A DNA stretch of 24,254 bases from positions 1 through 24,254 of the IMG/VR virus record IMGVR_UViG_3300036791_000162, one strand, 5' to 3'. A program made the position numbers and the translations under genes. The notes under the pieces were generated by a model. It had not been told where the DNA came from, searched no databases, and worked only from the letters and a program-made list of their open reading frames with translations. The DNA comes from a virus. Below, in pieces: positions 1 through 14,015 of this stretch (within the stretch, counting starts at the first letter, position 1; every line of letters starts with the position of its first letter).

Positions 1-12
1 CCAACGGAAGGG

Positions 13-53
13 CCGGCGGCACGGGTCAGCACAATCCCCGTTGCCGCCGGTTT
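13..53 (+). terminator. GC-rich hairpin, possible terminator upstream of the early operon
   Basis: A 9-bp perfect arm (CCGGCGGCA at 13-21 with TGCCGCCGG at 42-50) continues inward as a 4-bp stem (22-25 with 37-40) after one bulged T. It is followed on the plus strand by TTTCATTT. This fits a weak intrinsic terminator for a transcript arriving from the left, or an attenuator or RNase processing site in the leader of the operon that starts at 83. The U tract is short and interrupted, so termination strength is uncertain. Confidence 0.5.
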
Positions 54-82
54 CATTTGCGGAGGGCGAAAGGAGAACAACT

Positions 83-469
83 ATGTTTCGCATCGAATGC
101 TTTTGCGATGACAAGCGTCTCGCGGAAATTCTGAATGCGCTGAACGGCAAGGCCTATCAGGTAAGCGCCGTCCCGGTCGCCAACGTCAAGAAAGCTGGCG
201 GCACGCTGCGCCAAGCAAACGGGTCAGCCGTTGAGGCACTCATGGCCGGGATCCAAAAGCGCAAGCTAAAAGACGTTGGGGCTACTGACATGAAGGCAAT
301 CATGGTCGAGGCAGGTTTTGCGGAAGGTGGTTACAGCAATGCTTTAGCGCAAGCGCGGAGTTTTGGATTGTTGAAAGCCATACCAGCAGAAAACAACAAA
401 TATGTTCGCTACAAGATCATGCCGCCGAAGGCTAAGGCCAAGAGCAAATCGAAAGGAGCCTCAGCATGA
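83..469 (+). CDS. Hypothetical phage protein with lysine-rich tail
   Basis: This is a 128-residue protein of unrecognised family. I chose the ATG at 83, not the in-frame one at 41, because AGGAG (71-75) lies 7 bases upstream and because the stretch 42-50 belongs to a hairpin. The first ~45 residues are mixed. Residues ~50-110 look like a compact helical domain with a possible winged-helix pattern (helix, an AGFAEGGYSNALAQAR-type helix, then a short strand pair). The last ~15 residues are a Lys/Ala/Ser tail of the kind that contacts nucleic acid. As first gene of a coupled operon that also contains a helix-turn-helix protein, a regulatory or DNA-binding role is possible but not shown. Confidence 0.8.
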   Translation: MFRIECFCDDKRLAEILNALNGKAYQVSAVPVANVKKAGGTLRQANGSAVEALMAGIQKRKLKDVGATDMKAIMVEAGFAEGGYSNALAQARSFGLLKAIPAENNKYVRYKIMPPKAKAKSKSKGASA

Positions 470-747
470 GCAGCTTGCGCCTCTATAAAAGCTATATGTT
501 CCGCGACAAGGATCCGGCGATTGATGAATTGCGCACGGTCATTCAGCGCGCCAACAATCAGAACCGCCTCGATCACAAAGCGCTTGCGCAGATCACCGAG
601 GAGGGCGGGCCGACTGTCTCATGTATGCGCGCGTGGTTTTTCGGTGTGACCAAGCGGCCGACTAACGCCACGCTCGAGGCCGCCGGCCGTGCAATCGGCT
701 ATCAACGAGTGTGGGTCAAACGAAAATCAAACGGTCACGCAAAGTGA
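466..747 (+). CDS. Small helix-turn-helix (XRE/Cro-like) protein
   Basis: A 93-residue protein. The ATG overlaps the previous stop (ATGA), with a strong Shine-Dalgarno (AAAGGAG) 8 bases before it. Residues ~36-80 follow the layout of a Cro/C1-type helix-turn-helix: a first helix (HKALAQITEEGG), a recognition helix around TVSCMRAWFFG, and a third element with TNATLEAAGRAIGY. The motif of an Arg-x-Trp, a Gly two to three residues on, then Thr-x-x-x-Pro and a Leu-x-x-x-G-x-A-x-G helix is typical of phage DNA-binding proteins. The C-terminus is basic. It may act on the operator-like palindromes at 2621-2638 and 2673-2682; that link is inference. It could equally be a minor accessory binder rather than a repressor. 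Confidence 0.8.
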   Translation: MSSLRLYKSYMFRDKDPAIDELRTVIQRANNQNRLDHKALAQITEEGGPTVSCMRAWFFGVTKRPTNATLEAAGRAIGYQRVWVKRKSNGHAK

Positions 748-757
748 AAGACACAAA

Positions 758-1027
758 ATGCAGATCCAAATCGAAGTCAAAGATGAGAACGAAGCGGCAG
801 CATTGAGGGCCGCGTTAGCCGATCCGATTTTTGGATATGTGGTTCGGATCATGGGAGCGTTTCTGCGCGACGACCTTACACCTCCTCGCATAGCGAGCGT
901 TCTCGATTATATGGCGGAACTCACCGATGAGATTGAAGAACTGCAACAATCAAATCCTTCGCTCTCGTATTCCGAGGCTAAGAAAATGGTGCTCGACAGA
1001 CATAAAGAACCACCCAAGCTAAACTGA
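758..1027 (+). CDS. Hypothetical acidic helical phage protein
   Basis: An 89-residue protein that I do not recognise. The start at 758 (MQIQIEVKDENEAA) gives a natural beginning just after the upstream stop. The longer in-frame start at 689 would overlap the helix-turn-helix gene by 59 bases and has no Shine-Dalgarno. The ribosome site for 758 is itself weak (GTGAAAG). A short beta strand at the N-terminus is followed by several amphipathic helices, with a Glu-rich segment around residues 55-65. It sits in the same-strand early operon, 10 bases from the gene before it and 8 from the gene after. No catalytic motif is visible. Confidence 0.7.
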   Translation: MQIQIEVKDENEAAALRAALADPIFGYVVRIMGAFLRDDLTPPRIASVLDYMAELTDEIEELQQSNPSLSYSEAKKMVLDRHKEPPKLN

Positions 1028-1035
1028 GGTTGAAC

Positions 1036-1254
1036 ATGAGTAGCCTCGACGCGCAGATTGCCGAGGTAGAGCGCGAGATCAAATATCGCGAGGAGCTCTA
1101 TCCGCGTTGGGTGCGCGCCGGCAAGATACGAGGATCACTTGCGGACATGCACCTCGACCGTATGCGTGACGTGCTCAAGACCCTGCAGGAGCTCCGCAAG
1201 ATGCAAGACCTGGCCGAGAAACTCGAGAAAGAACAATACGAACAGGAGGAGTAA
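1036..1254 (+). CDS. Small coiled-coil phage protein
   Basis: A 72-residue, highly charged, almost fully helical protein. The chosen ATG at 1036 has TGAGGT (1025-1030) about 5 bases upstream; the TTG at 1030 is inside that ribosome site and is unlikely. The pattern E-x-E-I-x-x-R-x-x-x-Y-P-x-W-V-x-x-G at residues ~12-30, followed by a long helix, recurs in small unnamed proteins of many tailed phages. This recollection is of the family type, not a search result. The C-terminal ~20 residues are Lys/Glu-rich coiled coil, suggesting a dimer. Its TAA shares bases with the next start (TAATG), so translation is coupled. Confidence 0.8.
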   Translation: MSSLDAQIAEVEREIKYREELYPRWVRAGKIRGSLADMHLDRMRDVLKTLQELRKMQDLAEKLEKEQYEQEE

Positions 1255-1523
1255 TGACCGAACGATTAGGCGACGAACCGATCGAACCGCAGTACATCGA
1301 CGATATGAATGCGGTTGCGAGCGGACTCGATAAGCTTTTCAACGGCACTGTGAAAGGCAGCAAGCGCAAAGTCGGATTTGTGTTGCTGGTTTTTGAGTTT
1401 GGCGAGCAGCACGGCCGCTGCAATTACATCAGCAACGGCGCCGACCGCAAAGACATCGTGACGCTGTTCAAAGAGCAGATCAAACGCTTCGAGGGACAGC
1501 CCGAAATAGAAGGCCGCGCATGA
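1254..1523 (+). CDS. Conserved phage protein of unknown function
   Basis: An 89-residue protein with an excellent ribosome site (AGGAGGAGTA then ATG). It overlaps the previous stop by one base. Residues ~40-65 hold two hydrophobic strands and the motif GRCNYISNGADRKDI, which I associate with a family of small unnamed phage proteins. The remainder is a helix ending in LFKEQIKRFEG. No catalytic residues can be named. It is translationally coupled on both sides, so it belongs to the same early operon. A role in replication support or host takeover is only a guess from position. Confidence 0.8.
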   Translation: MTERLGDEPIEPQYIDDMNAVASGLDKLFNGTVKGSKRKVGFVLLVFEFGEQHGRCNYISNGADRKDIVTLFKEQIKRFEGQPEIEGRA

Positions 1524-1783
1524 CAGCCAATTTTCAAATCCATTGGATAGACCGCGAGCGCGAGCCACAATGCCCGCCTAATCCGGACCATCCGAAAGGC
1601 GTTGATGTCGATTGCAGCGATGGCCGATTGAGTTGCTTCTCCCCGCTGCCGTATCCTGCACCGCGTTGCGGCATGTACCTAGTCGAATGCCGGACATGCG
1701 GCGCAAACGCGATGATAACTACCGCAGGCAGAGTTGATGACCCCCGCTCCGTCAAGCTGCCGTGTCACAAGCCGCCACAATGA
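1520..1783 (+). CDS. Cysteine-rich small phage protein, possible zinc site
   Basis: An 87-residue protein whose ATG overlaps the upstream stop (ATGA). The N-terminal half is Pro/Asp-rich. The C-terminal half (residues ~52-82) reads as a short strand followed by VECRTCGANAMITTAGRV, a C-x-x-C knuckle with a later Cys and His near the end (LPCHK). Other cysteines lie near residues 18, 32, 39 and 50. C-x-x-C plus C/H near the terminus fits a small zinc-binding module, although no standard zinc-finger class is matched. Many tailed phages of soil bacteria carry similar short proteins. The function is unknown. Confidence 0.75.
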   Translation: MTANFQIHWIDREREPQCPPNPDHPKGVDVDCSDGRLSCFSPLPYPAPRCGMYLVECRTCGANAMITTAGRVDDPRSVKLPCHKPPQ

Positions 1784-2112
1784 AATTCAATCTCGAGGGC
1801 GAGTTTTTCATTCTCGACGCCGACCATCAGCCGGTGCCGGTTGACCTATACACTTGGGCCGAATGGTTTGAGCGGATCGACAACCGCCTCGTTGCGTGGA
1901 GCGAAGCCAATTCGGAAACTCACGTCAGCACGGTTTTCCTGGGGATCGACCACAATTTCGGCTGGCGAGGCCCGCGCGTCATGTTTGAGACAATGGTCTT
2001 TGGCGGGCCCGAGGATCAGTACCAGCGGCGCTATACGACCTGGGATGACGCCAAGGCCGGCCACGATGCTATCGTGCGCAAGCTGCGCGCCAAGGAGAGG
2101 CTATCCGCATGA
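1780..2112 (+). CDS. Conserved phage protein with FETM-FGG motif, unknown function
   Basis: A 110-residue protein. The ATG at 1780 overlaps the preceding stop (ATGA) and is preferred to the GTG at 1762, which lies inside the previous gene. The chain contains the pattern STVFLGIDHNF (residues ~51-61), FETMVFGGP (~70-78), then Y-Q-R-R-Y-T-T-W-D-D-A-K-A-G-H (~82-96). I know this arrangement from a widespread family of unnamed small proteins in phages and prophages of Proteobacteria. No enzymatic role is established to my knowledge. It is translationally coupled to both neighbours. Confidence 0.82.
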   Translation: MKFNLEGEFFILDADHQPVPVDLYTWAEWFERIDNRLVAWSEANSETHVSTVFLGIDHNFGWRGPRVMFETMVFGGPEDQYQRRYTTWDDAKAGHDAIVRKLRAKERLSA

Positions 2113-2327
2113 GAACGCGGGAGGAGCATATTGCGGAGTGCAAGCGGCGGGCGCGGGATCATTTGAACACGGGCGATATTGCCGAGGCGATCACGTCAAT
2201 GCTGTCGGATTTGGGCAAGCACCCGGAGACGCGCGGGATTGGCGAGAAGATGGCGATGCTTGGAATATTTTACATAATTCAGCACGACGAGCGAGGAGCG
2301 CGCGATTTTATTGAAGGGTTCCGCTAA
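2109..2327 (+). CDS. Conserved small helical phage protein, last gene of early operon
   Basis: A 72-residue, all-helical protein beginning MRTREEHIAECKRRA. Its ATG overlaps the upstream stop, with AGGAGAGG about 9 bases before it. The layout (charged N-terminal helix, ARDHLNTGDIAEAITSMLSDLGKHPET, then a helix) matches a small protein recurring in phage genomes, often described only as hypothetical. It ends with TAA at 2325-2327. The first helix of the predicted structured RNA begins at 2328, directly after this stop, so translation of this gene could influence folding downstream. Confidence 0.8.
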   Translation: MRTREEHIAECKRRARDHLNTGDIAEAITSMLSDLGKHPETRGIGEKMAMLGIFYIIQHDERGARDFIEGFR

Positions 2328-2545
2328 AACGGGCCGGGGTAGCTCCCCGTTCGGCTGGATACTTTCACCGCGTCCAGCTTGCCCGTTAGGCGCGGGGCGG
2401 TCTCTGGCCAGGGATCGTTCCGCGCCGCACTTCACGCGGCAGCCGGCGGGACGCCGGGGCCTTACTAGGGCGTGGCCGCCGACACCGAAATCCTAGTTAG
2501 TCCGGTGAGGCAGACGGGTCGCGCCCGTCCCGCGTGGCCTTCATC
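2328..2545 (+). ncRNA. Candidate structured RNA with three-way junction and 17-bp hairpin
   Basis: No convincing reading frame is present, but the plus strand can form a chain of helices. P1 pairs AACGGGC (2328-2334) with GCCCGTT (2381-2387) and encloses two hairpins (2335-2339/2345-2349 and 2354-2359/2373-2378), making a three-way junction. Next is an uninterrupted 17-bp hairpin (2389-2405 with 2410-2426, loop GGCC). Then come a stem with GGA loop (2443-2448/2452-2457) flanked by 2438-2440/2459-2461, a 6-bp pairing 2464-2469/2492-2497, and a stem 2513-2518/2524-2529. Four pairs of the long hairpin are G-U on the plus strand and would be C-A mismatches in the opposite transcript, which supports plus-strand RNA. 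A rival hairpin (2424-2428 with 2436-2440) could replace part of the main fold. The function is unknown, and GC-rich sequence forms stems easily. Confidence 0.5.
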
Positions 2546-2620
2546 ATAGGCTGGATTATGAGCGTTTCGGTGCCGGATTCCGGCATCGGGAACCCGTGAA
2601 CAGCCGCAGAACAAACACCC

Positions 2621-2638
2621 TGTTACTGATCGGTAACA
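2621..2638. promoter_or_regulatory. Operator-like palindrome TGTTAC-N6-GTAACA
   Basis: The 18-bp element has perfect 6-bp outer arms and a GATC centre, so 16 of 18 positions are symmetric. It lies just upstream of the promoter-like boxes at 2655-2682. The nine bases ATCGGTAAC at 2629-2637 recur at 2880-2888, just inside the first lysis gene. This suggests a protein-binding half-site used twice; the binding protein is not known. Confidence 0.45.
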
Positions 2639-2654
2639 TTTAGGGTCTAAGTAT

Positions 2655-2682
2655 TTGATAATAATAGAACCTCTGATATCAG
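2655..2682 (+). promoter_or_regulatory. Promoter-like boxes overlapping a perfect palindrome
   Basis: TTGATA (2655-2660) is followed after 16 bases by TATCAG (2677-2682), a fair match to sigma-70 type -35 and -10 boxes. The -10 region overlaps the perfect 10-bp palindrome CTGATATCAG (2673-2682), as an operator that blocks polymerase would. This is a consensus match only. Confidence 0.35.
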
Positions 2683-2692
2683 TTCCGTAGCA

Positions 2693-2720
2693 TTGACTTG
2701 TTGTAGATCAAACACATAGC
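2693..2720 (+). promoter_or_regulatory. Second promoter-like pair of boxes
   Basis: TTGACT (2693-2698), five of six bases of the -35 consensus, is followed after 16 bases by CATAGC (2715-2720), a poor -10 with three matches. It would transcribe rightward into the lysis cassette. The weak -10 makes this tentative. Confidence 0.3.
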
Positions 2721-2750
2721 GCAGTGCGGTTTCCCGTTTGGGGACGCAAG

Positions 2751-2790
2751 AGGCCTTCGCGGATCTTCGCAGGCCTTCGCGGGTCTAAGG
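2751..2790. repeat. 20-bp tandem direct repeat
   Basis: Two adjacent 20-base units (2751-2770 and 2771-2790) share AGGCCTTCGCGG-x-TCT, with one mismatch in the first 16 bases. They sit in the leader of the lysis cassette, just before AAGGAGG. They may be a protein-binding repeat or a recent slippage duplication. Confidence 0.7.
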
Positions 2791-2806
2791 AGGGACAATA
2801 GGGACT
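2784..2806 (+). promoter_or_regulatory. Weak match to a T7-type phage RNA polymerase promoter
   Basis: The core ACAATAGGGA (2795-2804) matches 9 of 10 bases of the T7 promoter core ACTATAGGGA. Over 23 bases the match is 13. The virion gene set is T7-like in organisation, so a single-subunit phage polymerase is conceivable, but none is encoded here. I noticed no second copy of the motif by eye. Confidence 0.2.
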
Positions 2807-2831
2807 TTTATAACCCTCGTTGTCAATTCTT

Positions 2832-2854
2832 GCGGTGCGTTGCGCGTGCGCCGC
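2832..2854 (+). promoter_or_regulatory. Leader hairpin upstream of the lysis genes
   Basis: GCGGTGCG at 2832-2839 pairs with 2847-2854 to give about 8 bp, including G-U pairs that exist only in the plus-strand transcript. It lies 16 bases before the ATG at 2871. No U tract follows, so a terminator is unlikely; a role in controlling translation of the membrane protein is possible. Confidence 0.35.
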
Positions 2855-2862
2855 TGCCGATT

Positions 2863-2878
2863 AGTTTCACATGAAACT
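2863..2878. promoter_or_regulatory. Inverted repeat centred on the lysis-gene start codon
   Basis: AGTTTCA (2863-2869) and TGAAACT (2872-2878) form perfect 7-bp arms around two bases, and the ATG at 2871-2873 lies inside. As DNA it looks like a repressor site. As RNA a five-pair stem would place the start codon in a six-base loop. Either would control the start of the lysis cassette. Confidence 0.45.
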
Positions 2879-3296
2879 TATCGGTAACGGTATCGCGATG
2901 AGCGACTCCTTTCGCAAGGATTGGCGGATTGGCACTGCCTTGCTTGTCGCATTGTTGGCGCTTGGGATCATTGGCGGCGTGCTGGTTTATTGGTTCACTC
3001 CCGCTCTCGGCGCGCCACTCGCTTATGACAAGGGCAAAATAGAATTTGCGACGACTATCGGGCCGCTATGTTCGGACGATTCGGGCGTGCGCGAACAAGT
3101 ACGCGGTACGGTGTTGGCAGGGCTGGAAAACGCCTTGCGTCAGCATGTAGAAAAAATAATGGGAGTATGGATCAGCGACGGCGGCGTGAACCCGTCGCGG
3201 GCCGCTAATGGCGTTTGGATTGGCTCGCGCGCTTACTTGCACGCGCGCCAGCAAATTGAGAGTTGGGACATTCCAGCTTGCGAGGGCAAGAAATGA
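2871..3296 (+). CDS. Single-pass membrane protein of the lysis cassette (holin- or spanin-like position)
   Basis: A 141-residue protein with one clear membrane segment at residues ~20-42 (hydrophobic, Gly-rich), preceded by basic residues R15, K16 and R19. This predicts N-in, C-out topology with about 100 residues in the periplasm. That domain has two cysteines (67 and 137) and no obvious coiled coil. An ATG at 2898 is an alternative start; neither start has a good ribosome site. The gene overlaps the amidase gene by four bases (ATGA). The amidase has no export signal, so it needs a partner, and this is the only membrane protein nearby. It is longer than most holins, with a large outer domain, so a holin, an inner-membrane spanin or a regulator are all possible. 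Confidence 0.75.
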   Translation: MKLIGNGIAMSDSFRKDWRIGTALLVALLALGIIGGVLVYWFTPALGAPLAYDKGKIEFATTIGPLCSDDSGVREQVRGTVLAGLENALRQHVEKIMGVWISDGGVNPSRAANGVWIGSRAYLHARQQIESWDIPACEGKK

Positions 3297-4552
3297 AAGT
3301 TTGCATCAGCGCCGGCCATGCCGAGGATGTGCAAGGCGCAGTCGGACCTAGCCCTTGGGGATTGAACGAGGTTGATGAGGCCAGGCGCGTCGTCACCAAA
3401 ACCGCCGAATATCTGCGCCAGGCCGGCATTGAAGCAGAAACTTGGTGGGACGACGTTTCGGAAAGTCAGGCAGAAAACCTCGACCGCATAGTGGCATGGC
3501 ACAACAATGCGGCCAGGGGCGAGCATCAGCTAGACTGCTCCATACATTTCAACGCTTACCAAGTCACCACCACAAAACCGATGGGGTGTGAGTGCCTGCA
3601 CTACCCGACGAATGACGACACCGCCGCATTGTCGGCCAAGATCGCGGCGACCATGGCTAACGCCATGAGCCTACCGAACCGAGGGGCAAAGCCGCGGAGT
3701 GACCTAGCCTTCATCAACGGGTGCCGAGCCGATGCGATCTTGGTGGAGACGGTATTCGTAGACGCCAAAATAGACTGCGACAACTATTCGGTGGAGTTCG
3801 ATGGCGCGTGTCTAGCCCTCGCGGAAAGCATTGCCGGCAAGGAAATCGGAGAGCCTGTGGAACCGCCCGAGCCGATAGAGCCGCCGGTCGAGCCCCCGCT
3901 ACCAAGCGGCGAGAACCGGGTTGACATCGCGGCTGCGATCAGGGGCGACGTAACCATCATCATCAACGGCACGCGCGTGCGCGGACATAGGCTCTGTGAG
4001 CATGTTGTCGATCTGACCATTGGCATGACCGGCGACGTAACCCTGGTTATCCAGGGCGAGGAATTTCACAGCAAGCCACCTACCCCGCCGGCCGCTGAGA
4101 TCCAAGCTAACCACCGCGACGTCATGGCGAGCGTATTCGGCGGCGAAAGCGATCCAAACCATAGCGCCTATCCGCCTTACGATAGCGCTGGCAACGGAGA
4201 GTTTTTGGACGACACCGAATTTTATGTCGCCATCCCGGTCAACGTGTCCGACGAGGACGCGCGGCTGCGCGGCGTGCGCGTCTACAATCGAGCGACCGGC
4301 GAGAGCGAGATAGGCCGGATTCGGGACAAGGGCCCTTGGATGGTAGACGATACCGCGTACTGTTACGGTGACGCCGAAGCAATCTCGGTCACTTGCTATC
4401 GCGAACATCAGCCTTTGCCGAGCGGTCCCCGCCAGGGTCAGATTCCGAACAACGAGGCGGCAATCGACTTGTCGCCGGCATTGGCGGAAGCAATCGGGAT
4501 TGATGGCTTAGGCCGCGTCGATTGGGAATTTGTCGAAGGAGAAGAAGTATGA
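3293..4552 (+). CDS. Endolysin: N-acetylmuramoyl-L-alanine amidase with RlpA-like C-terminal domain
   Basis: A 419-residue protein. The ATG at 3293 overlaps the previous stop, with GAGGG about 8 bases upstream. Residues 1-182 form an Amidase_3 domain that cuts the amide bond between muramic acid and the stem peptide. The zinc ligands are H9 (ISAGH), E26 and H85 (SIHFNA), and the catalytic glutamate is E152 (ILVETVFVD). A Pro/Glu linker spans ~186-206. Two short beta units follow, sharing GDVT-(I/L)-(I/V)-I-x-G (~216-262). Residues ~280-415 resemble an RlpA double-psi barrel: ASVFGG, V-x-V-Y-N-x-x-T-G, I-R-D-K-G-P-W, and IDLSPALAEAIGI with G-R-V-D-W. RlpA domains bind peptidoglycan and some cleave glycan strands, so this may be a binding or a second catalytic domain. 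No signal peptide or SAR segment is present. Confidence 0.88.
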   Translation: MKVCISAGHAEDVQGAVGPSPWGLNEVDEARRVVTKTAEYLRQAGIEAETWWDDVSESQAENLDRIVAWHNNAARGEHQLDCSIHFNAYQVTTTKPMGCECLHYPTNDDTAALSAKIAATMANAMSLPNRGAKPRSDLAFINGCRADAILVETVFVDAKIDCDNYSVEFDGACLALAESIAGKEIGEPVEPPEPIEPPVEPPLPSGENRVDIAAAIRGDVTIIINGTRVRGHRLCEHVVDLTIGMTGDVTLVIQGEEFHSKPPTPPAAEIQANHRDVMASVFGGESDPNHSAYPPYDSAGNGEFLDDTEFYVAIPVNVSDEDARLRGVRVYNRATGESEIGRIRDKGPWMVDDTAYCYGDAEAISVTCYREHQPLPSGPRQGQIPNNEAAIDLSPALAEAIGIDGLGRVDWEFVEGEEV

Positions 4553-4872
4553 GCAATGCCAAACCCAAACACTCGGCGCAGGATTGCGTCGTTGCGATTG
4601 ACCTAACTACCGACAATCCGGAAATGACGAACTACGGTGAGACCTCTCATTCGGAACGACAGCACGTTGCGGGGATGCTCATGCAAGCCGCGCAGAAGAT
4701 CGGCAGCGGCAGCACTGACCTCGAGTTGACGGATCCAACCGGCGAGCCCACCGGCACTATCACTTGGAGTCCCGAGAGCCATACCGGCGAGAGTTTGAAG
4801 CCTCCCGAGGAGCCGCCGCCGGAAAAGGCCGCCCCCGCCCCGGCCGCAGCGAAGCCGGCGAGCAAACGCTAA
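4549..4872 (+). CDS. Small phage protein with Pro/Ala-rich tail, unknown function
   Basis: A 107-residue protein. The ATG overlaps the amidase stop (ATGA) and follows AAGGAG. Residues ~38-72 (a helix, then an Ile-Gly-Ser-Gly turn, then DPTGEPTGTITW) read as a small folded core. I have seen similar short cores in unnamed phage proteins, but no function is attached. The last ~25 residues are Pro/Glu then Ala/Pro/Lys, probably disordered. There is no membrane segment or lipobox, so it is not an obvious spanin. It ends at 4872, and the stop codon of the oppositely transcribed giant gene starts at 4873. Confidence 0.75.
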   Translation: MSNAKPKHSAQDCVVAIDLTTDNPEMTNYGETSHSERQHVAGMLMQAAQKIGSGSTDLELTDPTGEPTGTITWSPESHTGESLKPPEEPPPEKAAPAPAAAKPASKR

Positions 4873-7800
4873 TCACTGCGGGCGACTCGTCACCGGAATG
4901 CCGAAGGCGTTGTTGGCGCCGTCCGCGACTTCATTAAACAAGCCGCGCAGATAGACGAGATTGCCTAAGATCTGCAGGCGTTGGACGGCTTTTGTGTCGC
5001 CCTCATTCCAATCCCCCGAGAATGCTGCGCCTGTAATCCGCTGCAGGTTCTCCACCTTGCCGGCTGTTGGGCCGAGCAACTGATCCATGACGTTGCGGCC
5101 GGCGTAGCGCGATAGCGGCTTTTGGGTTCCGAGCGCCCGATAGACATCGACCTGGCCGCGGCTCATTTTGGCAGCCAGCGCATTGCCGTCCTCAAACCAG
5201 CCGAGCAGGTTGCCGCGGCTCATCGCTTCCTTGATCCAATCCCCCGGGTTATCCGACGTAGGCTGCCCGCCGGTTAGCGCATTCAGTTTGTACGACAACA
5301 TCCCCAGGCCGAGCGATGAAACGACGCCCTGCAGCACTTGCGCGTCATGCCGCTGCAAATTGGCGAGCAGGATCCGTTGATGCGATCCGGCGACGAAACT
5401 CTTGAACTGCACTAGGGGACTGAGCACCGGGTTCGACATAATCAGCGGGCGCTCTTGACCAGGCGTCACCACGGCTATGTCGGCCTCGCGGTTGACCGCA
5501 CCCTCGAAAGCCTCTCGCGCCGCTTGGTCCGTCCAATCCCGGGTATTCGGCAGCGCAACCCCGTCGATCACCTGTTGACTATCCCGATACTGCTTTGCGA
5601 TCCGGCCGGCCATCTGTTGGGTGATATTGTTCTCGCCGAGGATTGCGAGCTCACGCGCGGAGGCGGTGCCGGCGGCATGAGCTTCCGACATAATGGCGAG
5701 CTCCTGCATCGCGACGGTGCCGGCGATCGTTTTCATCATGTCGGTCCAGGGCGAGAGACCGTTGGCAAATTGGAACTTGTCGGCACCCCATTGCAGCGTT
5801 CGCTCAAACCGCGACTTAGGCCGCATCTGATCCATGACATCGGCCATCGAATGCGCCCGCGCCGAGGTGACCATTTCGACCGCGACACCCATCGCCTTTA
5901 ATTGGCGAAAGGCTTCCCCCGGGAGCTCGCCGCTGCCTCGCATCAGCGAGGAGATGAATGGCGTATAGGCGTCGCCGAGCGCCGCTTGCAGCCCGAAGCG
6001 AAAGACGACGCCGGCCATGTCCGGCAACGAGGACATTGTTGCCACGCCCATCGAGGCGAGCACGTTGTAGTTTTTCAGAGCCGAGGCGATCCGCGCCGCG
6101 TTGGGCATATTCTTATAGGCTTCCGCCCCGTACAGCCCACGGATGCGATCGCGAACTGCGGCCAAGTCGCGCAATACAGTCTCACGTTGATTGCCTAACT
6201 TGAGACGTTCATCGGCATCGTCCGAGGCGGCAATCTTGCCGGCAAACTCGTCCTCGACCTTGCGAAACTCATTCTGCATTCCAACGTCGCCGAACCGTTC
6301 CGTAAGCAGGACATCCGGCACGACCGTGTGCATGTGTGCGTTAACGAGGTGCTCAACGTCGTTGACGAGCCACGGTTGGATTAACTCATCCGGGATATTG
6401 AACACTCGCTTGGCGAGCGACCCTCGAGCCGGTTCCGAGAGGTCGATCTCACGATTGCCATAGCCGACTTTGGCAGCGGGCCCGCCGGTTGCCATCTCAT
6501 ACGGCAATCGACCGTCCGGCGATCCGAGCACCCGCTGCACAATCTCATCGGCCCGACTTCGCAATTCCATGTCCGGGAGATCGCGATTGCTCTTGATGAT
6601 TTTCTTAACGGTCGAATCAACCGCGTCATCGGCACTTGTGAGCCGTTCGGTTGTGACCTCGCCGCGATCGCGCTCCTCCTCGTACTTCGCTCGAGCCTTG
6701 AGGGCGCTCTTTGCGTCACTCGCCGATCGCCCTTGCCATCGGCCGAGCTCCTCCTCAATCCCTTGGCGGATTTCATCGTGTTGATCTTGCCAGGCTTGGC
6801 GAACGTCCTCCATGAGAGTGCGCCGCGCCTCATGCCGGTCTAGCCGGTCCTCGAGGATCCCGAGCCGGCCGCGGTTCGCCCGCTCCGCAAGCGCCGCCTC
6901 GCCGGCTTTGATGTCCGTCGTGGCGAGACGATTCGCCCGGGCGGCATTGCCGGCTTGCGCCTGCGCAATCAACTGCCGCATCCGCGCCACGTCCTCGCGG
7001 GCGACCCGGAGCTCATCGGCCGCGGCGCGGTGTCGTATCGCAACCGGAACCGATTGCCCTGCGGCTTCCATGTCCTCCGCGATTTTGTCGAGATCGCGCA
7101 GATTTACCGGCAGCTTCGACTCATCACGGAATATGTCGGCCACGTCGCGGATCTTGTTAACCTTGACGCCGGCTCGAGTGAGAGCCTCGTCCATTGTCGC
7201 GGCCAGCTTGCCGGCTTCATGCAGATCCCGCTCACGGGGCGATAGTCCTTCCAGCCACCAAGACGGTTCTTTGCCGCGCGTGGCGTCGCTGATCCAATTC
7301 AAAATATCGTCGCGATTCGGCGCACCGTGGCCCGTCACTTCCGTTGTCGGGAATTGCTTCGGATATTCGTTTTGGATTTTCTCGCCCATCTGATCGAAGG
7401 CGCGACCTTGCGGGTTAATGAGCCCAGGCTTCACATTCGGGCCGCCTAACACGCCGCTCACCTCGCCGCCCTCATCTTTGAGGCCGCCGTTGAGCGTCAG
7501 CCAGGTTAGGAAGCCGGACGATGGCGCCTCGGGATACTTGCGCCGGCCGACCAGCATCTCGGCAGCCTTGCGGTTCACCCCGGTTAGAACGCTCTTGCGC
7601 TCCTCATCTTCGAGGGCCCGCAACTGCGCTTCCGTCATCGGGCGATCTTGCCCACGCAGTTCGCTTTCGTCCTTTTGCATTTGGTCGATACGGGCGAGCA
7701 TTGCCGGATCGCGAGCCTGCCGACGCAGCGCGTCTATATCGTCCCGGGTCTCCTGCATCTCCTGCCGAATATCTTCGGAGCGTTCATCCAGCAGGTTTGT

Positions 7801-9651: not shown

Positions 9652-12600
9652 TTACCCGCGCGTTCCGAGGCCCGTAACAATGTCGCCTTCCTGATAGCGC
9701 GTCGGCGGCGGTAGCGTGGCCGCGCCCAATGCACCTAATCCGCGCTTAATGGCACCGCCAACATCGACACCTGGCCCCGGCGGCTCCTCGAGGATCTGCG
9801 GCGCATCCGGCGAATTATAGGTCGTTCCGAGTTTTCGGAAATTCTCATGGACAGCGTGCCAATAGTCGTTGCGCGCATTGAATTGCCGCTCTGCTTCCGG
9901 CTTGTAGGGTTCCGGATTTGCCGACCAGCGTCCCGGCACATGTTCAAGCAATCCATTCTTGTCGATCACGACGTTATAGGAGGGCGGCTTGCCGTCTCTT
10001 ATGTCCCGCTCAGTCTGATCGTCCGGCACGATTGCGTGCAATCTCCAATTAACTTGCGGCAATCGTTCCGTGGGAGGGCCCCCCACTTGCATCAATGGCC
10101 CGCGTTCAGGCGTCGGCACATGAGCCGTCATTTCCGGCGCCGGCTGCCCTATCTGTGTGACGGGTGAGCCTTGCGATAGCGAGACCCAATCATTGACCGA
10201 CCGTTGCATCCAATTAGGATCATTTTGGATTTGTAGATCCGGCATTTGCTCCGGATTGTTTTTCATCAACTTCCCGGTAAACGAGTTGATGCTATAAATC
10301 TTTTGCATCTGTTGCAGCGCGACCTCTTTCGCCTTGTCCTCTGAGGCGCCCATACCCCGCAGCCCTTTGACGAGCTCGACGTATTCGTTCCTAATCATCC
10401 CGGGGATGAGCGCATTTGATTCACCGAAGGCGTTCGGATCCGTTGCCGGTTCCACCTTGCCAACCCCCGGCACCCACGACGGCAAGTGACGTTGTGCAAA
10501 CCCACCGAATTGACTTAGGACCGCGGCGCTCGAGATTTTCTCTTTGCCGGTTTCTGAGACCTCATATTCTTTGTCGATCGCCTTGCGTTGTCTATCGCGC
10601 TCCTGCGCCATTGCCGGATTGTCAGCATCGTTGAGGATTTTCGTATATTGGTCGATCGGCATTTTGCCGGCGGTTGCTTCCCACCCGAGCAAAGCCATCA
10701 GCGTTGCGTCGCCATATTTTGCTTTGAACTCGGGACCGGCTTCCGTTTTCCAAAGCTTGTCGAGGACGCCCATTGCCAATTGCACACGCTGCGGACTTGT
10801 GGAACGCGCCGCATCTTGCAAGGCAGCTTTGGTTTCCGGGGTTTCCATAGCCGCCGCGAATGCTTTCGGCGACAGACTTTGTGACATCGCGGTAATTGTC
10901 GCCTGCGCTTGCGCGGGATCGCCGGCTTTAATCAAATTAGCGAAACCAGCCCGCTCCTCTTTCAAAATAGGCGAAGCGTCCGGCGGGACATCGGGATACT
11001 GTTGCCGCATTGTTTGCAGCGTTTTCTCTCGATTTTGCAATTCCGCACGCATCCCGGCAGGATCGGCCGGATTAAGATCACCCGGGGTTTGATTGTTCAG
11101 ACTTTGCGCCGCCCGAATAGGATCGTCTTTCCTTTGCGTTGCGCTCGCGGCCGAGGCTTCCGCGGCCATGCCCAAGACGCGACGCGCGGCCGGATCGCCG
11201 CCTTGCCTCGCCTGATTTAGCATCGTCTCAATCTGTGCCGGCGTGAAATTGCTCGACGCTTTATTAGCTTCGATTGCCTCTGATACCTTCGGAACGAGAT
11301 CCTCTTTGCCGCCTTCAACAGCCGCGCTTACGAAATCGTTTAGTTGCTGATCGCTAATCTTGCCGCCTTTCTTGATTGTATCTTGAATATCCGCTTCCTG
11401 CTTTGTGGCGTAGCCGGCGACGTTCGTTCGCATGTCCGCAATGGTCGATTGAAACAATCGCTGCACGGCTTGCGAATACTCGCTAACGCGATGGCCCGGT
11501 ATCATAACGTCACGACCCGACGCTCGAGCCGTCCCCTGGTAATCGCCGGCATAGGCTTGCTGCGCATATTGCAGACGATTGTTGTATCCATTGCCGGCTT
11601 CGGGGTGATCCGGCGTATAGCCGCCAGGTCGCTCAAAGTGCATCATCGCCCTTGCAGCTTGTTCGGGCGTCTTAGCAGCTTCCAATTCCGCACGGGCCCG
11701 CTTCACCCCCGGATCGTCGCTAGTTCTCAATTCGTGGTCGAAGTAATCGAGTTGCGTCTTAAGATCATACGGATCTACGCTGTTCTTGTTCGCATAATCA
11801 AATAAACCTTGCCGTCGATCATCCTTCCATTGCGCGATACCGAGCGAATGCCCGCTATCTCCCGGCAGCTTTGGATTCATGTCGCTTTCGGCCATGAGGT
11901 TGCCGACCATTCCGGCCGAAGCTTCTTTCGACCATCCCTTCTCTTGCAAGTATTCATGCGCTCCTTTGGCCGCCGCGTATGCCGGCATTGCCCCACGAAA
12001 CCCTTGCGCGAGTTGATGGTGCGCCGGATCCCACGAAATCGCAGGATCAAACTTGACGCCGAGCTCTTGCGCGGCTTGTCCCATTGCGCGCCGAATTTCA
12101 ACCATCTTCGATTCCGACGCCTTGCTGTAATCCGGCTTGCCGTCCGGCCCTACGGGAGTGAGGTCGATTGCATCGCCCGTTAGGTGTTGCGAGTGATAAG
12201 TCTTTGAATGCCCTTCCGCGACGGCGCGATTCTGATCCTCTTGACTGCGAACACCGCCTTTGTCACCGATTGTAAATTGCTCGCCGGAAATCTCCGACGC
12301 GCGTTTAACCACTGCCATCAACGTAGGACTGACGCCTTCCGCGCGTCCGACCGCTGCCGCATCCCAATAACTCGGCATCGAAGGATGAGGGACAAGACCT
12401 TTCGTGGCATCATCGAGTTGAATGATGGCGTCGCGGCCCGTCGCGACACGCGACTGAGTTATGATTGGATGCATCAGGCGAATCGCATCGAGATCCGCCA
12501 TTGATTTGAAATCGCCGCGTCGCCGCGCTTCATCCATGAAGGCGTCGTTTTGCTGTTGATCGTAGGGAACGCCTTTTGATTGATTGTCGTAATATGCCTT

Positions 12601-13536: not shown

Positions 13537-14015
13537 CAGGTACTTCCAATCCCAAAGTTGGATAAATTCGTGCCGCCCACGCCCTTGAGGAGCGTCGCGG
13601 CGACATCAAGGTTGCTTAACCCGAGCGCATACTTGCCTTGTGCTCGAGAGAATGCGGCGTCGGATCGCTCCTGTTCGGCTTGTTGCAGGAAGCTTTCTTG
13701 ATCGGTTAGGCGTTGCCGTTCGCCGAGGTTCTCAGACCAATCACGCACCGTGGCGCCCGTTGGCGACGTTGGATCCGTATGCGCAGCCGCGCGTACCGAG
13801 TCGATCATGCCGAGCGTGCGCGCCAATTTTTCGCGATCTGCAGCCCCGGTTTGCGCGGCTTGGAGCTCGCCGTATTGCGCGGCCCGCTCGAGCGTGTCTG
13901 CCTTGTAATCAGCCGCAGCCTTGGCGCCGACACCCTTTTCGTGCGCCGAATAAGCGGAAATGCCCAACGAGGCTATCGAGGCCACGCCCGCGATCGGCAA
14001 TGCTGCAGCGCCCAT
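13536..14015 (-). CDS. Small internal virion protein, T7 gp14-like position
   Basis: A 159-residue protein. The first ~25 residues are a hydrophobic Ala/Gly/Ile segment (MGAAALPIAGVASIASLGIS) that may be membrane-active. They are followed by a long Ala/Gln/Glu-rich helix (~30-125) and a Gly/Ser-rich end. Podovirus ejection proteins of this size and layout lie directly after the tail nozzle gene and before the two large internal proteins, as here. The start lies one base after the nozzle stop, and the end overlaps the next start by one base, so the three ejection genes are coupled. The assignment rests on position and architecture more than on a sequence motif. Confidence 0.75.
   Translation of the reverse strand: MGAAALPIAGVASIASLGISAYSAHEKGVGAKAAADYKADTLERAAQYGELQAAQTGAADREKLARTLGMIDSVRAAAHTDPTSPTGATVRDWSENLGERQRLTDQESFLQQAEQERSDAAFSRAQGKYALGLSNLDVAATLLKGVGGTNLSNFGIGST

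Follow-up and report, generated by a model that had tools for sequence, protein, structure and literature searches.

A candidate structured RNA with a conserved core at the end of an early operon in three soil phages

In phage lambda, which is temperate, the structured RNA sib lies 3' of int on the int transcript and can alter mRNA stability; it forms a simple RNase III hairpin near int. To our knowledge, descriptions of small structured phage RNAs with complex folds are few, and those of RNAs lying between integration and late functions are fewer still. The put element of phage HK022 is about 70 nt long, forms two stem-loops downstream of early promoters and binds RNA polymerase (PMC9378689). 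GOLLD and ROOL are large phage-associated structured RNAs whose function is unclear (PMC12286853), and cluster A mycobacteriophages carry RNA-based prophage origins and no integration cassette (PMC7157519).

Here we describe a candidate plus-strand RNA in the window, by which we mean the whole stretch of DNA analyzed (IMG/VR record IMGVR_UViG_3300036791_000162, 24,254 nt), and compare it with two related records, G001 (IMGVR_UViG_3300036846_000622) and G002 (IMGVR_UViG_3300031820_000003, 86.9 kb). It would resemble sib as a structured RNA that, in G001, lies downstream of int on the strand of int; it differs in that small ORFs separate int from the RNA there, and in having a multi-helix core with predicted crossing helices. 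Like put it is a compact phage RNA element, probably of an early transcript, but the definition of put does not cover a core of about 104 nt that is closed by a helix (P1) and comes after the last early gene. GOLLD and ROOL are likewise phage-linked structured RNAs, but are far larger, and the window is without any Rfam match. The cluster A origins are similar in having a non-coding RNA close to the region of prophage maintenance; in the window an AT-rich block lies just downstream of the RNA. They differ in that G001 has an integrase, and in G002 the block and the RNA are not neighbors.

Genomic setting and relatives

Small rightward ORFs fill positions 1–2327 of the window, the last of them ending with TAA at 2325–2327. 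A 543-nt gap without convincing genes follows, then an ORF of unassigned function (2871–3296) and an endolysin gene (3296–4552; PHROG 435 match, E = 1.6e-43), whilst the virion genes are on the minus strand. Relatives of the capsid protein were found in 109 IMG/VR stretches, the closest being that of G001 (97% identical). On its plus strand G001 encodes an exonuclease VIII-like protein and a tyrosine integrase, and the window start aligns just past this integrase gene, suggesting that the window phage is most likely temperate. The early operon of the window would most likely be the integrase-proximal operon. The int gene of G001 ends at 12034, and small ORFs separate it from the RNA region, which starts near 13880 on the same strand; the integrase of G002 is near the far end of the contig.

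A DNA search of 40 related records gave two homologues of the region, in G001 and G002. Nearly the whole region is kept at the same place in G001 (E = 1e-139), where the neighboring genes have diverged (the endolysins after the RNA share ~56–61% protein identity). Indels between the window and G001 in this region include ones of 37, 25 and 11 nt which, not being multiples of three, indicate that it is non-coding. G002 keeps only the equivalent of window positions 2435–2539 (81% identity), between an upstream ORF unrelated to that of the window and downstream genes on the opposite strand. In all three phages a rightward operon precedes the RNA, which lies on the strand of that operon after the stop codon of its last gene, whatever is downstream. 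The first-pass annotation had located its structured RNA candidate after the early operon and ahead of the lysis cassette. That placement is supported, but the lysis link is not essential: since the genes that follow the RNA in G002 are on the other strand, the RNA cannot depend on that cassette.

Rfam 15 (4227 families, gathering cut-off) gave no match in the whole window, in line with the first-pass annotation, which could not assign the region to a known RNA class; at E ≤ 10 the sole match was a 15-bit one on the minus strand (2744–2786). No tRNA or tmRNA was found by ARAGORN in the window or in the searched regions of G001 and G002. DNA searches against known phages gave no match for the region, the G002 core returning only 25-nt Mycobacterium phage matches (E ~1), and those against plasmids gave only 31-nt Streptomyces plasmid matches (E 0.5). 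Five degenerate patterns run over IMG/VR recovered G001, G002 and chance matches only, and a single GTDB genome scan gave two chance matches. With a scoring model of the core (R1), only G001 and G002 stood above noise among 40 whole (longer) related records, many of them fragments, and 40 short relatives. A topology-only scan of 1.46 Mb of loci lacked specificity and yielded no credible further member, and no similar core was seen in the G014 and G037 intergenic regions that follow int. The titles and abstracts of open-licence papers that we searched contained no description of this RNA.

Fold of the region and covariation in its core

Directly after the stop codon, the plus strand can form a three-way junction (domain A, 2328–2387) closed by the 7-bp helix AACGGGC/GCCCGTT (2328–2334 with 2381–2387). 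This junction had been reported in the first-pass annotation, and we found the closing helix and two inner arms at that position in both the MFE and centroid folds, with most helix pairs at ~94% probability. The long hairpin reported beside it (hairpin B, plus strand, 2389–2426) is also present, with 17 unbroken pairs, the four-base loop GGCC and four G-U pairs, and is the longest unbroken hairpin on either strand of the window. Of 2561 Markov-randomised windows of 24 kb, 26 (~1%) contained a hairpin of at least 17 pairs, and the 543-nt intergenic region, randomised 400 times, never gave one of more than 13 pairs. A separate 12-bp unbroken hairpin lies in the diverged spacer downstream (2565–2591) and is not conserved in G001.

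The G001 counterpart of domain A is a plain hairpin, AACGGGC-CGGGGTT-GCCCGTT, with the closing helix around a 7-nt loop and the arms absent; at the same relative place G002 has unrelated sequence that forms a hairpin closed by a 9-bp helix. Hairpin B is absent from G002 and identical in G001, so that it carries no covariation information on its pairing. The junction and the 17-bp hairpin, which led the earlier description, are real, but from the alignments they are less conserved than the core at 2433–2536. A competing hairpin (2424–2428/2436–2440) had been put forward as half of a two-state switch. It is possible, and forcing it costs only 1.2 kcal/mol, but it has a pair probability of ~5% and depends on sequence missing from G002; the switch is not supported.

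The 218-nt region (2328–2545, 70% GC) folds at −116.6 kcal/mol (z = −2.87), a value equalled or bettered by 2 of 200 shuffles, and ranks third of 963 tiles by folding after GC correction. For the first 103 nt, which hold the junction and the long hairpin, z was −6.0 on the plus strand and −2.7 on the minus strand, and for their G001 counterpart −4.3 and −1.9, respectively. On the plus strand the junction and the long hairpin thus fold far better than shuffled sequence.

The conserved core (plus strand, 2433–2536) has homologues at G001:C1:13951-14086 and G002:C1:499-607, which score 123 and 130 bits with model R1, a model built using these same two core sequences. It is closed by P1 (2433–2439 with 2530–2536), in which two pairs are compensated. 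The P2 hairpin (CCGGCG-GGA-CGCCGG, 2443–2457) is invariant in all three sequences and gives no covariation information. PKb (GCC and CACC with GGTG and GGC; 2478–2480 and 2483–2486 with 2504–2507 and 2509–2511) occurs in the MFE fold of all three and has one compensated pair (C-G to G-C in G002). The P4 hairpin (GACGGG-TCGCG-CCCGTC, 2513–2529), which abuts the 3' strand of P1, also has one (C-G to U-A in G002). The remaining helix, PKa (ACTAGG/CCTAGT, 2464–2469 with 2492–2497), is invariant in all three sequences. It would cross PKb, the two forming an H-type pseudoknot; PKa, the helix that makes the pseudoknot, is proposed solely from complementarity and is absent from nested MFE folds. A nested alternative for the window core was calculated at −54 kcal/mol; each nested half of the pseudoknot is less stable by this calculation (−42 kcal/mol with PKb, and −38), which counts against the pseudoknot reading. 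Further stems, as claimed in the first-pass annotation, do exist, but the MFE fold of 2431–2541 does not wholly match the conserved fold. The nested-fold z of the core alone is modest (−1.3 in the window, −2.0 in G002).

The G001 core has 25 extra nucleotides in one loop, where a GCC-GCAA-GGC hairpin was seen by eye as a possibility, as a variable stem would show. A tRNA-like reading of the core (7-bp P1, abutting P4, GCC tail) was rejected, as the P4 loop is unlike a T-loop and ARAGORN was negative. HDV-type and group I readings were considered by eye and dropped; there was no Rfam match.

Related phages were then compared for compensating changes. The window and G002 differ at 22 of 109 aligned bases. 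Eight of these differences fall within helices, where they make up exactly four compensatory pairs (two in P1, one in PKb and one in P4) with no one-sided changes; all 32 pairs are standard in the three sequences, and none is broken. Random placement of the substitutions equalled the observed compensation in 1 of 100,000 trials, an optimistic figure, since it was from these three sequences that the helices had been derived. The signal was lost when helix partners were slid by one to three columns. Taken with the G-U pairs and the strand asymmetry of folding, the compensatory pairs argue for an RNA reading of 2389–2536, and the original preference for a plus-strand RNA over a DNA palindrome or chance is supported.

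Proposed role and rival explanations

We tentatively favor, at below-even confidence, the reading that 2328–2541 is a plus-strand structured RNA of temperate phages and a 3'-end module of the early transcript. The RNA would form the 3' end of the transcript of the integrase-proximal early operon, and its core (2433–2536) would fold as one closed domain in which two helices make the H-type pseudoknot. Folded module and leading hairpins together may resist decay and so leave a discrete stable RNA, which could protect the upstream mRNA end, act in trans, or both. This is supported by the lack of a U-tract terminator after the hairpins: no intrinsic terminator (a GC-rich hairpin followed by a T run) was found on the plus strand within 2328–2870. 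The nearest plus-strand terminator-like site is at 2923–2939, and such sites are as numerous in 1–5000 as in shuffles. It is also supported by the upstream genes, which differ between the window and G002, yet have the RNA on their strand in both. Against it stand the small number of sequences (three), the invariance of P2 and PKa, and the recovery of the RNA by model search in no more than two of the 40 longer relatives, although many of these are fragments.

Two close rivals of the 3'-module reading are an element directed at polymerase and an independent small RNA. The former would be a cis-acting nascent-RNA element (an attenuator, insulator or put-like antiterminator) that works on RNA polymerase or Rho and sets read-through to the lysis cassette. 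We consider this rather unlikely. The RNA of the window and G001 does sit between the early operon and lysis genes of the same strand, and HK022 put is a compact phage RNA able to bind polymerase; however, the next genes in G002 are on the opposite strand, put has ~70 nt and two stem-loops downstream of early promoters (PMC9378689), and no plus-strand U-tract terminator was found in the region.

That the core is kept while the genes on both sides change would also suit a trans-acting phage small RNA with its own promoter, binding a host protein or acting antisense to host mRNA, whose position at a 3' end is incidental. This we judge unlikely: no promoter-like site was found upstream of the RNA, and the sole one in 1–5000 lies downstream of it (2633–2662), although host promoters may differ.

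An AT-rich non-coding block (2600–2719, strand not assigned), separated from the RNA by a diverged spacer, is identical to G001 at 117 of 120 positions and contains short direct repeats. It follows the RNA in the window and G001 and is absent beside the RNA in G002, so the two are not obligatorily coupled and the block appears to be a separate feature. It could be a DNA site, with attP, an operator or a promoter (a late promoter) as candidates. The block includes a near-palindrome, TGTTACTGATCGGTAACA, at about 2622–2639, with a related sequence, ACTTATCGGTAAC, at 2876–2888; a CTTCGC-containing unit occurs three times at 10-bp spacing in 2751–2790 and is kept in G001. Just 3' of the RNA in G001 (L082 ~1690–1775), a possible ORF for a 26-residue hydrophobic peptide, MDATNILWVIPILILICAVIYVVRWP, was noted by eye; it has no clear ribosome site and no evident window counterpart.

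That the region as a whole is mainly a DNA site (attP, origin or operator), its RNA-like folding being a side effect, is improbable. The integrase upstream in G001, the conserved AT-rich block with its repeats and the existence of phages with RNA-based prophage origins (PMC7157519) speak for it, but the compensatory pairs, G-U pairs and strand asymmetry favor RNA for 2389–2536 and the block is not beside the G002 core; a DNA site may still suit 2600–2719.

Direct repeats of 17 nt that differ at two positions (480–496 and 621–637) flank the core in G002, and a 13-nt repeat of the end of the upstream gene comes before it, as might be expected if a small mobile structured element had inserted behind stop codons and were carried as a cassette. 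This is very improbable, given the lack of bracketing repeats at the window or G001 and the single copy found per genome. This arrangement in G002 (L118 380–637), in which the 13-nt repeat brackets a 92-nt hairpin stretch ahead of the core, resembles an insertion or a tandem duplication. Ordinary GC-rich hairpins without function would fit the 70% GC and the modest z of the core, but with the core kept across replaced flanks, four compensatory changes and no disruptive ones, this explanation can practically be set aside.

Significance for phage RNA families

The RNA is a good candidate for a new phage structured-RNA family with three members in soil phages, as judged from sequence comparison, and is not a proven class. 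It is possible, if doubtful, that it represents a new class of compact phage RNAs with crossing helices, independent of neighboring genes, that would act catalytically or through a bound host factor (such as RNA polymerase, the ribosome or a nuclease) and travel as a cassette beside the integration module of temperate phages. If confirmed, the family would offer a short core whose fold can be tested, together with a covariance model for use on larger collections, and would show that reading raw sequence can lead to a genuine RNA gene overlooked by both protein annotation and Rfam.
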